64,000 nt of DNA. Origin: Canibacter zhoujuaniae (GTDB taxonomy: Bacteria > Actinomycetota > Actinomycetes > Actinomycetales > Microbacteriaceae). Below the pieces are notes generated by a model. The model was not told the origin of the DNA, ran no database searches, and saw only the letters and a program-made list of their open reading frames with translations. The stretch is taken from assembly GCF_011752015.1 (NCBI RefSeq), contig NZ_JAAIKA010000001.1, positions 496,001 to 560,000 of the forward strand, given 5' to 3'. This document shows, one piece after another, positions 10,632 to 25,670 of this stretch; the stretch's first letter is position 1, and each line of letters opens with the position of its first letter. Position numbers and translations under genes: made by a program.

Positions 10632-10704
10632 GCACCTCTAGCTCAATTGGCAGAGCAACTGACTCTTAATCAGTGGGTTCCGGGTTCAAGTCCCGGGGGG
10701 TGTA
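10632..10704 (+). tRNA. tRNA-Lys (anticodon CTT)
   Basis: A complete 73-nt cloverleaf can be folded: 7-bp acceptor stem (GCACCTC with GGGGTGT, including G-U pairs), D arm GCTC/GAGC, anticodon stem ACTGA/TCAGT with loop CTCTTAA and anticodon CTT at 10665-10667, T arm CCGGG/CCCGG with TTCAAGT, discriminator A, and CCA not encoded. Its 3' half, from the last anticodon base onward, is the attachment core of the prophage; integration rebuilds the full tRNA. Confidence 0.96.
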
Positions 10705-10965
10705 CGAAATAGCCTCAGGCCTAAGGTCTGGGGCTTTTCCTGTTTCTAGCCAATACACCGGAACGCCGGTAAGTTCAGCAAACGCAGCAAGGTCTCGAGG
10801 GCGCGGCACGTTCCTACCGTTTATCCAGCGACTAACTGCTGTTCGACTCACTTGAAGTGTCTCTGCGACATCTTGCACGCCTATATCTGCAACTCGTAAC
10901 GCCTTACGCATACGGTCAGCGAGGTCGAATTCTAATAACTCATTGCTGGCAATCATTAGTTTCAT
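10666..10965 (-). CDS. Phage immunity repressor, HTH (XRE type), prophage form ending in attL
   Basis: This is a small DNA-binding protein with a Cro/CI-type helix-turn-helix: VQDVAETLQVSRTAVSRWING is the recognition region, followed by LTGVPVYWLETG. The frame is open from 11091, but the start is placed at ATG 10965 (99 residues) or ATG 10956, since only GAAGG just upstream could serve as a ribosome site and the upstream residues are not protein-like. The last residues (SYTPRDLNPEPTD) are the antisense of the tRNA 3' half. The TAA stop uses bases 10668-10666, the last of which is host DNA inside the anticodon. In the joined attP this codon becomes TAC and the protein grows by 23 residues. The gene is divergent from the excisionase-like gene and flanked by operator-like repeats. 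Confidence 0.85.
   Translation of the reverse strand: MKLMIASNELLEFDLADRMRKALRVADIGVQDVAETLQVSRTAVSRWINGRNVPRPRDLAAFAELTGVPVYWLETGKAPDLRPEAISYTPRDLNPEPTD
10667..10709 (+). repeat. attL core (43 bp)
   Basis: The sequence from the third anticodon base through 5 bp past the tRNA end is identical to 25669-25711. To the left the bases differ (T at 10666, G at 25668), and to the right they differ again (T at 10710, A at 25712), which fixes the core. It also encodes, in antisense, the last 14 residues of the prophage-form repressor. Confidence 0.95.
10711..10738 (+). terminator. Phage-supplied terminator for tRNA-Lys
   Basis: AGCCTCAG (10711-10718) and CTGGGGCT (10728-10735) form an 8-bp stem with one G-U pair, followed by TTT. 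It sits directly after the attL core and replaces the host terminator, which now lies beyond attR. The same DNA encodes part of the repressor C-terminus on the other strand. Confidence 0.6.
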
Positions 10966-10974
10966 ACCTTCATC

Positions 10975-11094
10975 ATTGTGACAACTGTCACAATATGCAA
11001 CCCGAGACGCCAAAATGACACAATGTGCCACACGACGCGGCGTGTCACGTGCGCCATAATGCAGCAGGTGACACAATCTGTCATGTGACACAAC
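10975..11094. promoter_or_regulatory. Repressor/early operator region with repeated GTGACA-type half-sites
   Basis: A perfect 20-bp palindrome at 10975-10994 (ATTGTGAC-AACT-GTCACAAT) lies 10 bp before the repressor start. Related half-sites recur across the divergent region: TGACACAATGTG near 11016, GTGTCACGTG at 11042-11051, GTGACACAATC at 11068-11078 and TGTCATGTGACACAAC at 11079-11094. This is what operators of a phage repressor controlling itself and the rightward early promoter should look like. Individual -35/-10 boxes are not clear. Confidence 0.7.
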
Positions 11095-11108
11095 AGAAAT
11101 TAATCAGT

Positions 11109-11294
11109 ATGCGGGAAGCCGCAGCGGTGATAGGCGTTAGCCGAATGACCGTTAAAAGATGGGCTGACTCTGGCCGAATAACTCCGCAAATGAAGCTCCG
11201 CGGCTCTAACGGGCCAGTGCTATTCAAAACTGCGGATATTGAGGCGTTGAAAGCAGAACGTGAAGCCGAACGCGCAAGCGAGGCCTCAAAATGA
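11109..11294 (+). CDS. Excisionase-like MerR/HTH_17 DNA-binding protein
   Basis: From ATG 11109 the product is 61 residues: MREAAAVIGVSRMTVKRW is a winged-helix HTH typical of phage excisionases (recombination directionality factors), followed by ADSGRITPQMKL, LFKTADIEAL and a charged tail. The frame is open upstream to 11025, but that part crosses the operators and overlaps the repressor leader. There is no clear Shine-Dalgarno, so the start is tentative. It is the first rightward early gene and overlaps the next gene as ATGA. Confidence 0.7.
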   Translation: MREAAAVIGVSRMTVKRWADSGRITPQMKLRGSNGPVLFKTADIEALKAEREAERASEASK

Positions 11295-23460: not shown

Positions 23461-24257
23461 TGGTCATCAGTAAACACGCGGCGGGAACAGTCCCGCACCA
23501 CAACAAAATTAACTACCGCGGCGCGGCAAAAATTCAATACGTCATAGTCCATCACTGGGCGGGCACGCACGGCGGCGATAGCCGTCTACTCAATCCACAC
23601 GAGCAGGTTAGCGCTAACTATATCGTCTACTCAGACGGTCGAATAATCCAACAAGTGCCGGAAGAATACCGGGCGTGGACGAGCGGGCACTCGATTGATT
23701 TCCAAGCAATCACAATCGAGACGCAGAACAGCGCGACCGGCGGCGTATGGCCAGTAACCGACGCAGCACAGCGCGCCCTCGAGAAACTTATCGGTGACAT
23801 CGGCGCACGCTATTGGGCGGGCAGGGTTGAACGCTGGCGTGTGCGCGGCCATCGTGAATTCGCGGCAACTGCTTGCCCTGGTGAGTTCCTTTGGGCACGT
23901 CTCGGCGCTATCGCGGACGCTGCGAACAAACTCGCTGGCGGCACGCCGTTACCAAAACCGAAACCAGTGCATAAGCTCACCCTGCAGCAGGTCGCGCAGC
24001 AAGTGATTCGCGGTAATTGGGGCAACGGTGCAGACCGAGTAAGCAGGTTACGTACAGCAGGTTACGACCCCGCAAAAGTGCAAGCCGAAGTAAATAGACA
24101 ATTAGGAACCGGAACAGCACCAAAACCGGATATCGCGAAAATCGCGCGCGAGGTAATCGCCGGTAAATATGGCAACGGTGAGGAACGCCGGCGACGACTC
24201 GGCGGGCTTTATCCACTCGTACAAGCTGAAGTTAATAGACAATTGGGATTGCGTTAA
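23461..24257 (+). CDS. Endolysin: N-acetylmuramoyl-L-alanine amidase with two CW_7 repeats
   Basis: The lysin cuts the bond between muramic acid and the stem peptide. The N-terminal PGRP/Amidase_2 domain shows zinc ligands and context in YVIVHHWAGTHG, ITIETQNSATGG and RGHREFAATACPG. Two C-terminal repeats (VAQQVIRGNWGNGADRVSRL and IAREVIAGKYGNGEERRRRL, each ending VQAEVNRQLG) match the Cpl-7 cell-wall binding type. ATG 23461 with AGGAAA upstream is preferred over an earlier GTG at 23427. It is followed at once by the membrane proteins of the lysis cassette. Confidence 0.93.
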
Positions 24258-24562
24258 TGATTGTTGGAGAGTTTTTTACAGTCGCAGCCGCAATTGTCAC
24301 GTTCTTTGGTGTGCTTGTTACAGCTGCGTTCACATATCTTCAACATCAGCAAGGCCGATTATTTGAACGAATTGAAAGGCTCGAGGAACGCAACAACGAG
24401 CTAGAACGCAATAACGACGAACTAGAACGTGATGTGCGCGCGCTCTGGCTCTATAACAGCGACCTATTAAACGCTTGTCTAAAGCACAACATAGAACCGC
24501 CGCTGCCCTCACCACGAGTACAACGCTTATTCAACACACAGCGAGAAATCGATGAACGGTAA
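24257..24562 (+). CDS. Membrane-anchored coiled-coil lysis-cassette protein
   Basis: This 101-residue protein has one N-terminal membrane segment (about residues 5-29) and then a long charged coiled coil (RLEERNNELERNNDELERDV). It starts on the last base of the endolysin stop and overlaps the next gene. A holin, antiholin or spanin-like role is possible; the sequence only shows an anchored coiled coil. Confidence 0.65.
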   Translation: MIVGEFFTVAAAIVTFFGVLVTAAFTYLQHQQGRLFERIERLEERNNELERNNDELERDVRALWLYNSDLLNACLKHNIEPPLPSPRVQRLFNTQREIDER

Positions 24563-24782
24563 AAAGAAATTTTTGACTTACAAGCGCCGCCAACTAATCT
24601 ACAGACTGTCGATAGCCCTAACCGCGCTACTTGTCATATATGGTGTGCTTACCGAAGAACAAGCGGCAGCGTGGATAGGGCTAGTTGCGGTAGGGCTTGG
24701 TGTGCCCGGGCTCGCGCTTTCAAACATGAGCCCGGACGACGACGACACACAGCGTTTAAAGTCGAGCGCCCGCGACAGCTAA
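24552..24782 (+). CDS. Holin (putative)
   Basis: The 76-residue protein has two hydrophobic helices (about residues 18-32 and 38-56), a basic start and an acidic C-terminal tail (SPDDDDTQ), the usual make-up of small phage holins. It ends convergently with the integrase gene, overlapping it by 27 bp. Confidence 0.75.
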   Translation: MNGKKKFLTYKRRQLIYRLSIALTALLVIYGVLTEEQAAAWIGLVAVGLGVPGLALSNMSPDDDDTQRLKSSARDS

Positions 24783-25580
24783 ACGCAACTGATTGTTATC
24801 TGCTGGTGTGTAAATCTGTGTTGTAGCTACGCTTGCGTGTCCTAAGAGTTCTTGCACCGCGCGGATATCGTGAGAAGTAGCGCGATAGAACTGGCCAGCT
24901 GCGCGGTGTCTAAGCATGTGCGCGGTGACACCGTCCGGTAGGGCACGGCTGATGAGCTTAGAAACGTGCGCGCCGCTTAGGTGCCCGTCAATCTTGCCGG
25001 TGAAGAGCCAGCCGTTAGCATGCTGAATGACTTTAGCTATATCGTTTGAGCATGGCACGCGGCGTATCTTGCCGCCCTTACCGTGAACTATCAGAGTATA
25101 GCCGAGCAAGTCATTTTCAATGTCTTTGCTATGTATGCGAGCTATTTCGCAGCTTCTTAGCCCAAGCTCTGCACCAAGTCTTATCATCAGACGCACCCGC
25201 GCAGGGGCAGCTTTCAACGCAGCATAAATCGCGACTTCCCCGGCGGGTCTGGGCTTGCCGGGCGCTATTTTGACGCGCGGTAGTTGCTCCGCCGGGTTGG
25301 TTGTAATCATTCCGTGTTCGAAAGCGTATCGGTAAAACGTTTTTATCGCAGTAGATGCGCTGCGTCGTGTGGCCGCGCTCCATCCCGGGCGGCTCAGGTA
25401 TTCGACTATTTCGTTATATGTAACAGTAAGCGGGTTAGCGATATCAGCGGTGTGCCAAAAGCGCCGAAGTTGATGGTTGCGAAGCTTAATTGTGTCGGCA
25501 GAGTATCCGCTCGCGGCCTGTGATGTGTGCCACGGTTCTAGAGCGTAACGCCATTGTGTTAGGTAAGGAAGTGTGTACAT
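24756..25580 (-). CDS. int: Tyrosine integrase
   Basis: The 274-residue recombinase has the core-binding N-terminal half and the catalytic residues: Arg142 in GLRSCEIARI, Lys168 in VHGKGG, the HxxR pair His221/Arg224 in AHMLRHRAAG, His248 in LLGHAS and the nucleophile Tyr257 in TQIYT. It lacks a separate arm-binding domain and is short, like integrases of small actinophages. It reads toward the prophage interior from attR. In the free circle it lies just downstream of the repressor, and its ATG has no clear Shine-Dalgarno, which would fit coupling to repressor translation in the attP form. Confidence 0.95.
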   Translation of the reverse strand: MYTLPYLTQWRYALEPWHTSQAASGYSADTIKLRNHQLRRFWHTADIANPLTVTYNEIVEYLSRPGWSAATRRSASTAIKTFYRYAFEHGMITTNPAEQLPRVKIAPGKPRPAGEVAIYAALKAAPARVRLMIRLGAELGLRSCEIARIHSKDIENDLLGYTLIVHGKGGKIRRVPCSNDIAKVIQHANGWLFTGKIDGHLSGAHVSKLISRALPDGVTAHMLRHRAAGQFYRATSHDIRAVQELLGHASVATTQIYTPADNNQLRLAVAGARL

Positions 25581-25598
25581 GCTCGAAAGATATAGGGG

Positions 25599-25670
25599 CT
25601 AGCAGCGGCGCGGCAATTTACCGATATGTGGCGCAAAAATAAACGGTATCGAGGATAGTTTGAGTCGGTA
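25599..25670 (-). other. Viral-form C-terminal extension of the repressor (read only in attP)
   Basis: When attL and attR are recombined to attP, the repressor frame enters here. The codon that is TAA in the lysogen becomes TAC (bases 25670-25668), and translation continues for 23 codons, YRLKLSSIPFIFAPH then IGKLPRRC, to TAG at 25601-25599. The integrase ATG follows 18 nt later. In the prophage this stretch has no promoter or start of its own. The hydrophobic extension does not end in the LAA-type tag that the host tmRNA adds. Confidence 0.8.

Follow-up and report, generated by a model that had tools for sequence, protein, structure and literature searches.

How does a temperate phage whose attachment site lies inside its own repressor gene come to depend on integration for its immunity, and how does the resulting prophage stay silent when an active tRNA gene stands immediately upstream of its lytic genes? 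Both questions are raised by a 64,000-nucleotide stretch of the Canibacter zhoujuaniae genome (contig NZ_JAAIKA010000001.1, positions 496,001 to 560,000), which we refer to throughout as the window; the second we did not find posed in the literature examined. The window holds a siphovirus-like prophage of about 15 kb, integrated in the tRNA-Lys(CTT) gene of a member of the Microbacteriaceae with a small genome (1.47 Mb). Our answer, to which we give a probability of roughly 0.78, is that this is a small temperate phage with integration-dependent immunity whose repressor gene also carries an embedded antisense terminator.

The attachment site sets the stage. The tRNA-Lys gene (10632–10705, forward strand, found by ARAGORN), the attB target, is restored at the left junction, attL, in a form identical to the tRNA obtained by joining the two host flanks. 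A 43-bp att core at attL (10667–10709) is identical to the one at attR (25669–25711), and the two copies diverge at the very first base leftward of that identity. The tRNA anticodon occupies 10665–10667, with 10666 as its middle base. We assign attB to this gene because the joined flanks form an intact tRNA followed by a terminator. A clean empty locus was not found in Canibacter oris or Leucobacter sp. OH1287, where the tRNA-Lys cassette upstream of the same phosphatase gene is reversed. The cassette and its upstream region (window 10597–10708, against 2840–2739 of locus L156 and 2817–2710 of locus L157) thus have opposite orientations relative to the downstream phosphatase gene, which implies an inversion in one lineage.

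The repressor gene runs on the minus strand (10666–10965 in its prophage form; HTH_31/HTH_3 domains, phrog_2328 at E 2.7e-21, and homologues), and its reading frame crosses the core, which lies inside the coding sequence. Its stop codon, TAA at 10668–10666, takes its first two bases from the core and its third from host base 10666. In attP, reconstructed by joining the phage ends, G25668 replaces that host base and TAA becomes TAC. From this codon the viral frame runs for 23 codons (YRLKLSSIPFIFAPHIGKLPRRC; 25599–25670, minus strand, joined to the repressor only in attP), ending LPRRC before a TAG at 25601–25599. The integrase ATG at 25580 stands 18 nt beyond that TAG, an in-frame start upstream of it was looked for and none found, and the two genes are in tandem in attP. 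The split stop, the base change in attP, the 23-codon extension and the 18-nt spacing had been set out in a preliminary description of the locus, and its coordinates hold base by base. The mechanically called open reading frame of the repressor, 141 residues, has its start placed too far upstream; by eye, either ATG 10965 or ATG 10956 looks more suitable and gives a prophage form of 99 or 96 residues and a viral form of 122 or 119. An open frame of 23 codons has about one chance in three of occurring (estimated from 61/64 per codon) and is unremarkable alone. It rises above chance because 20 other prophages also change the C terminus of their repressor at the att core.

The switch itself is known and has been reviewed. 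The evidence supports assigning it to the kind of integration-dependent immunity found in the mycobacteriophage BPs and in Gordonia cluster CW. The preliminary description had drawn the parallel with BPs and Brujita by analogy, and homology now takes it further: the repressor matches phrog_2328 together with repressors of phages with integration-dependent immunity, and the integrase is closest, at 41–46% identity among the matches listed, to those of small Gordonia phages, cluster CW included, and of Gclasvirinae mycobacteriophages. Even the third-base stop at the core edge has a precedent, since a sense codon of BPs becomes a stop when a host base at that edge fills its third position (PMC9262239). 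For four cluster CW phages, 17.1–17.7 kb in size, a temperate lifestyle and a predicted attB in tRNA-Lys are described (PMC5559632). McGonagall, Jeanie, GMA5 and GRU3 of cluster CW and the small Gordonia phages SallySpecial, EricDab and Coeur resemble our prophage in genome size (15.9–17.7 kb), in integrases 42.7–45.5% identical among the matches listed, in a repressor upstream of the integrase gene, and in an antisense hairpin within the repressor gene in the six compared (with too few T in SallySpecial for the rule used below). They differ in their Gordonia hosts, in repressors ending AA and integrases ending A, and in a gap between the two genes that varies from 14 to 352 nt. A megablast of the phage against 50,697 phage records returned zero matches, so cluster CW membership by nucleotide similarity does not apply.

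Also comparable are BPs, the Gclasvirinae (Sneeze, Liefie) and the Pclasvirinae (BigNuz, Fishburne, Thespis), which likewise have attP inside the repressor gene, with Gclasvirinae integrases 41–42% identical among the matches listed. Their genomes are much larger, at about 41–49 kb; Sneeze and Liefie are without an embedded hairpin, and the Pclasvirinae repressors end LAA, HAA or VA. The Mycobacterium abscessus prophages MabC, MabN, MabO and MabH, likened here by description and not by sequence, share with ours the lack of an ssrA-like end on repressor and integrase (PMC8092301) but live in other hosts. Two small Bifidobacterium prophages, Bb423phi2 and 689b-1, are also kin of small-genome phages and integration-dependent by reconstruction, but with a tRNA-Met site and an ssrA-like tail (PMC6109161).

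A search for related phages with the same arrangement of repressor, attP and integrase, which the preliminary description had put forward as a check, bore it out. Integrase relatives were found in 30 of 398 genomes of the family (E up to 1e-30), and in 32 of 396 genomes of an order sample and 15 of 394 of a class sample (E up to 1e-45); the samples overlap, and each count includes the window's own genome. Of 24 repressor matches, 15 could be paired with an integrase end (those of G298 and G315, in our genome numbering, on different contigs), and 5 more switch anatomies were recovered by looking for a second core, 3 of them in 20 stretches and all 5, those 3 among them, in a set of 40; in the remaining stretches a usable second core was absent within the bases examined. 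That makes 20 further prophages, 17 in genomes of the same family and 3 of the same order, in which the repressor frame crosses the att core and its C terminus changes there (G059 being unclear). In the 18 that lie on one contig, the distance from integrase to second core is 14–17 kb in 15, with G655 at 18, G039 at 32 and G297 at 36 kb. Fifteen of the 20 share the window's arrangement, in which the base just beyond the core completes the stop codon (G406, G140, G089b and G655 coming from the second-core pairing of extra stretches); in the others it falls 2 bases past the core (G298), 3 (G048), 5 (G383 and G297) or 84 (G059). Both the cores and the frame in which the core is read vary among these recurrences of the overlap with a host-completed stop.

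From their T-arm-like sequence we judge the cores of these relatives to be 3' halves of tRNA genes. ARAGORN, run on the integrase-side loci only, where a whole tRNA is not expected, found 1 tRNA in 37 loci. In G059 the shared stretch of 82 bp exceeds the tRNA part, and this system was omitted from the tally of C-terminal ends below and kept in the hairpin tests. G457 was not counted, as 634 bp are common to both its ends: on its contig C1 (locus L108, integrase 1734132–1734920) a 634-bp direct repeat stands upstream of the integrase and again about 14 kb away, beginning with a tRNA-like core, as if the att region had been duplicated. Upstream of the G406 integrase (L085) are two tRNA-like cores, at −346 and −458, possibly from successive integrations at one tRNA. 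A distant second system from the same genus lies on contig C14 of the Canibacter oris-like genome G001 (L155, L153 and L154; integrase at 17743), with about 35 kb from integrase to second core. Its repressor frame also crosses a tRNA-like core, and its prophage form extends past that core (EGAALPLS).

What, then, would integration change? In published accounts an ssrA-like end on the viral repressor is a key feature (PMC9934374, PMC9262239), one of them listing such an end on the integrase too (PMC9262239), with single exceptions noted (PMC7194413). The preliminary description had remarked that the extension ends LPRRC and has no LAA-like tag; that is correct, and the integrase (ending AVAGARL) has none either. 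As a novelty the missing tag does not stand, for M. abscessus systems without such tags are on record, and other signals are supposed for them (PMC8092301). Among 12 named phages the repressor ends AA in 8, the others ending RA (BlueFeather), AS (Sneeze), AK (AGM1) and VA (BigNuz). Among the window and 19 of the prophages, a final alanine is present on both proteins in 13 systems, on the repressor alone in 3, on the integrase alone in none and on neither in 4, namely the window, G263, G415 and G290 (Fisher p 0.007, a test that overstates independence because the G415 and G290 tails end alike). The distant G001 system has no tag on either protein.

A switch stripped of proteolytic control would fit these ends. 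Both repressor forms would be active, integration would merely separate the integrase gene from its promoter, and immunity would not depend on integration. The repressor's LPRRC and the integrase's GARL are what such a loss would leave, and across the 20 systems the final alanine is missing from both proteins together in 4 and never from the repressor alone. Yet the stop codon continues to straddle the core edge, and the tail has kept an open reading frame in phase with the repressor; the distant system of the same genus is also non-AA (KLLV on the repressor tail, FIL on the integrase), which hints at another signal and not at decay; and several M. abscessus prophages without an AA end are taken to use other signals, "similar to phage BPs" (PMC8092301). 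We consider such a loss rather unlikely. The viral tails of G263, G415, G290, G247 and G365 offer an observation of their own: several contain strongly hydrophobic stretches (for example VMVWLVLSVLAAV and SLGLLLILAL), which could be a degradation signal of another type. An indel as the cause of losing an ancestral AA end was considered by eye on attP and dropped, as no single shift that keeps the TAG gives Ala-Ala.

The second half of our answer concerns the strand opposite the repressor. Directly after the tRNA at attL, in the repressor codons for ETGKAPDLRPEA, lies a hairpin (10711–10735, forward strand) of 11 pairs, 7 of them GC, with a run of T (TTTTCCTGTTT) directly behind it on the tRNA strand; by its sequence it has the form of an intrinsic terminator. 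The region 10706–10756 folds at −20.6 kcal/mol (shuffle z −2.76), and the T-run numbers 7 against 4.9 expected under recoding. Another hairpin, a strong one with a T-run, stands directly after the attR core (25709–25745, forward strand). We read it as the host's own tRNA-Lys terminator, which integration would have moved out of place; Canibacter oris (L156) has a similarly built hairpin behind its tRNA-Lys, and a hairpin with T-run was found on the host side of attR in 10 of 13 loci tested. Probably, then, the hairpin inside the repressor gene replaces the displaced terminator and shields the repressor and lytic genes from the tRNA promoter's reach.

The family was examined on a set of 36 members, made up of the window, the 20 prophages and 15 named phages. 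Left aside were BlueFeather, whose repressor has no neighbouring integrase; Doggs and BBQValindra, in which a core could not be placed; Pygmy and Twister6, whose repressors match or nearly match those of Fishburne and Wizard; and the Canibacter oris system. The closely related pairs Fishburne/Thespis and Sneeze/Liefie were kept. For each member, 200 protein-preserving recodings drawn with the codon usage of the same element's integrase served as the background for the best 42-nt hairpin in the 69 nt adjoining the tRNA end. The hairpins exceed synonymous expectation, with a mean z of −1.87 and p < 0.05 in 20 of 36 (−1.82 and 23 of 36 in a rerun with 100 recodings). Repressor windows further upstream gave −0.46 (5/36) and −0.29 (4/36), and integrase windows 0.13 (1/36), −0.48 (5/35) and −0.05 (1/35). 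Under a rule asking for a stem and at least 4 T in the next 8 nt, the tRNA strand qualifies in 24 of 36 members and the repressor strand in 1. The same rule picked out 4 of 348 integrase windows in antisense and 2 of 348 in sense (none of 348 in either at 7 GC pairs), and 3 of 36 and 3 of 36 neighbouring repressor windows (3 and 0 at 7 GC pairs). Where a stem lies near (26 members), the T-run averages 5.3 T per 10 nt, compared with 4.0 for the recodings (p 1e-5). Grouped by repressor identity, the hairpin effect is kept at 50% (14 groups, p 0.0002) and at 60% (30 groups); at 40% three groups remain, too few for the test. In many relatives the place of the hairpin is taken up in the protein by a linker such as APSPDGDGA, APSEDGA or APAPDDGAGA, the codons of which form inverted repeats.

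Could the hairpin be something else, an operator, an integrase site or an element of the repressor mRNA? It adjoins attP, and it exists in the repressor mRNA as well. The 24 stems differ, falling into 19 sequence groups at 80% identity, while the structure, its position close behind the tRNA and a T-run confined to the tRNA strand are all kept. We think such a role improbable; as conserved integrase or operator sites in particular the hairpins were rejected, their stem sequences not being conserved. That the frame arrangement is a mere by-product of attP overlapping the 3' end of the repressor gene, with no regulatory meaning, is hardly credible: a 23-codon open extension is indeed no rarity, but the host-completed stop recurs in most of the other prophages with different cores and core frames, and the two repressor forms of BPs have been distinguished by experiment (PMC4557955).

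Several observations nevertheless weigh against integration-dependent immunity with an embedded terminator. With no tag on the viral tail or the integrase, the inactivation step of the BPs type is not visible, and the canonical tag could have worked in this host, whose tmRNA tag ends ALAA and whose ClpX match is above the cut-off, a match on which we also rejected a loss of ClpX from the host as the cause of the missing tags. Close phage relatives, on which selection on the 23-codon tail might be read, were found neither by integrase, terminase and capsid scans of viral_contigs nor by megablast. Taken alone, the window hairpin is only moderately significant against synonymous recoding (z −2.04, p 0.03), and a mechanical scan gave 2 terminator-like sites against 0.9 expected. 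The integrase control window with a mean z of −0.48 itself deviates (p 0.02). Finally, 12 of the 36 members fail the hairpin-plus-T rule, so an embedded terminator is not obligatory. In G048, G406, SallySpecial and G059 the stem is present and the T too few; in G383, G298, G152, G297, Sneeze, Liefie and BigNuz the stem is weak or missing; and in Hibiscus a bulged hairpin with a T-run was missed by the rule. In G383, G298 and G152 the helix-turn-helix (HTH) domain nearly abuts the core.

The sequence of events we favour, with protein stability, immunity and termination being the steps we infer, would be as follows. In the free phage the repressor and integrase genes lie in tandem and the repressor bears its 23-residue viral tail; this form is presumably the weaker or shorter-lived of the two, and the signal responsible would not be a terminal LAA. 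Acting on attP within the repressor gene, the integrase would recombine it with the tRNA-Lys gene. The host's anticodon base would then complete TAA, removing the tail, and the integrase gene would be stranded at the opposite end of the prophage, cut off from the promoter of the repressor. Lysogeny, to go by BPs, would be maintained by the short repressor. Integration would also shift the tRNA's own terminator 15 kb away; the one encoded on the tRNA strand by the repressor codons between HTH domain and core would substitute for it, stopping transcription from tRNA-Lys before it could cross the repressor gene in antisense and enter the lytic genes, which in the window follow on that strand. Since the end of the short repressor is antisense to the 3' half of the tRNA, the tRNA points at the repressor in these members. 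The absence of a T-run on the repressor strand means that repressor-integrase transcription of the free phage can pass. We think it likely that in many such phages the repressor gene does triple duty as repressor, attP and antisense terminator, with a linker shaped largely by the hairpin and a lysogeny that would otherwise be leaky. Judged by titles and the starts of abstracts, no published description of the combination of switch and antisense terminator turned up among the matches listed, the founding paper (Broussard 2013) not being covered; the dual-coded antisense terminator is the part we have not found in print. That elements targeting tRNA genes generally may bring their own terminators is plausible, and we do not claim it as new.

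The short repressor would have candidate operators to act on. Just upstream of its start is a perfect 20-bp palindrome of 9+2+9 design (ATTGTGACA-AC-TGTCACAAT, 10975–10994), and further TGACAC/GTGTCA repeats, also candidates, lie between the repressor and the divergent genes (11016–11093). The palindrome's sole perfect full copy is this one in the repressor-lytic intergenic region; one copy with 2 mismatches is found outside the prophage, in host DNA at 5557. Elsewhere in the phage no further operators were apparent, half-site matches in the window being at chance (15 against 14.5 expected). A weak promoter-like site for the repressor lies at 11084–11056 on the minus strand (1 found against 0.6 expected). 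The palindrome belongs to a cluster of TGTGACA/TGTCACA repeats at 10925–11125, all of them candidate operators.

In the rest of the element, the frames of the main head, tail and lysis genes are open. All genes but the repressor and integrase described here are on the forward strand. The divergent unit opens with an excisionase/Cro-like HTH_17 protein (11109–11294; phrog_66; open reading frame 11025–11294, with ATG 11109 the likely start), followed by an HNH endonuclease known from a domain match (12387–12674), the large terminase (13111–14571; phrog_9, about 42% identical to those of small Arthrobacter phages among the matches listed), the portal (14810–15940; PF04860) and a fused head protease and major capsid protein (15933–17444; domain, phrog and homologue matches). 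Connector, major tail, tape measure and minor tail genes (17447–23448; phrog matches) lead to an endolysin, an amidase with CW_7 (23427–24257; domain match), and to spanin-like (weak, E 0.0042) and holin genes (24257–24782). The tyrosine integrase (24756–25580, minus strand; PF00589 and homologues) closes the element. Among the matches listed, similar terminases and capsids occur in small phages such as 15-kb Arthrobacter and Curtobacterium phages.

For the biology of these phages, the prophage adds a small-genome member of the Microbacteriaceae to the reach of a well-studied decision circuit, whose recurrence among small prophages of the group the 20 further cases show. The tendency of final alanines on repressor and integrase to be present or absent together turns the question of another degradation signal into one that can be tested. 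And the antisense terminator, if real, would explain both how a prophage with lytic genes directly downstream of an active tRNA gene keeps silent and why so odd a linker recurs in its repressors.

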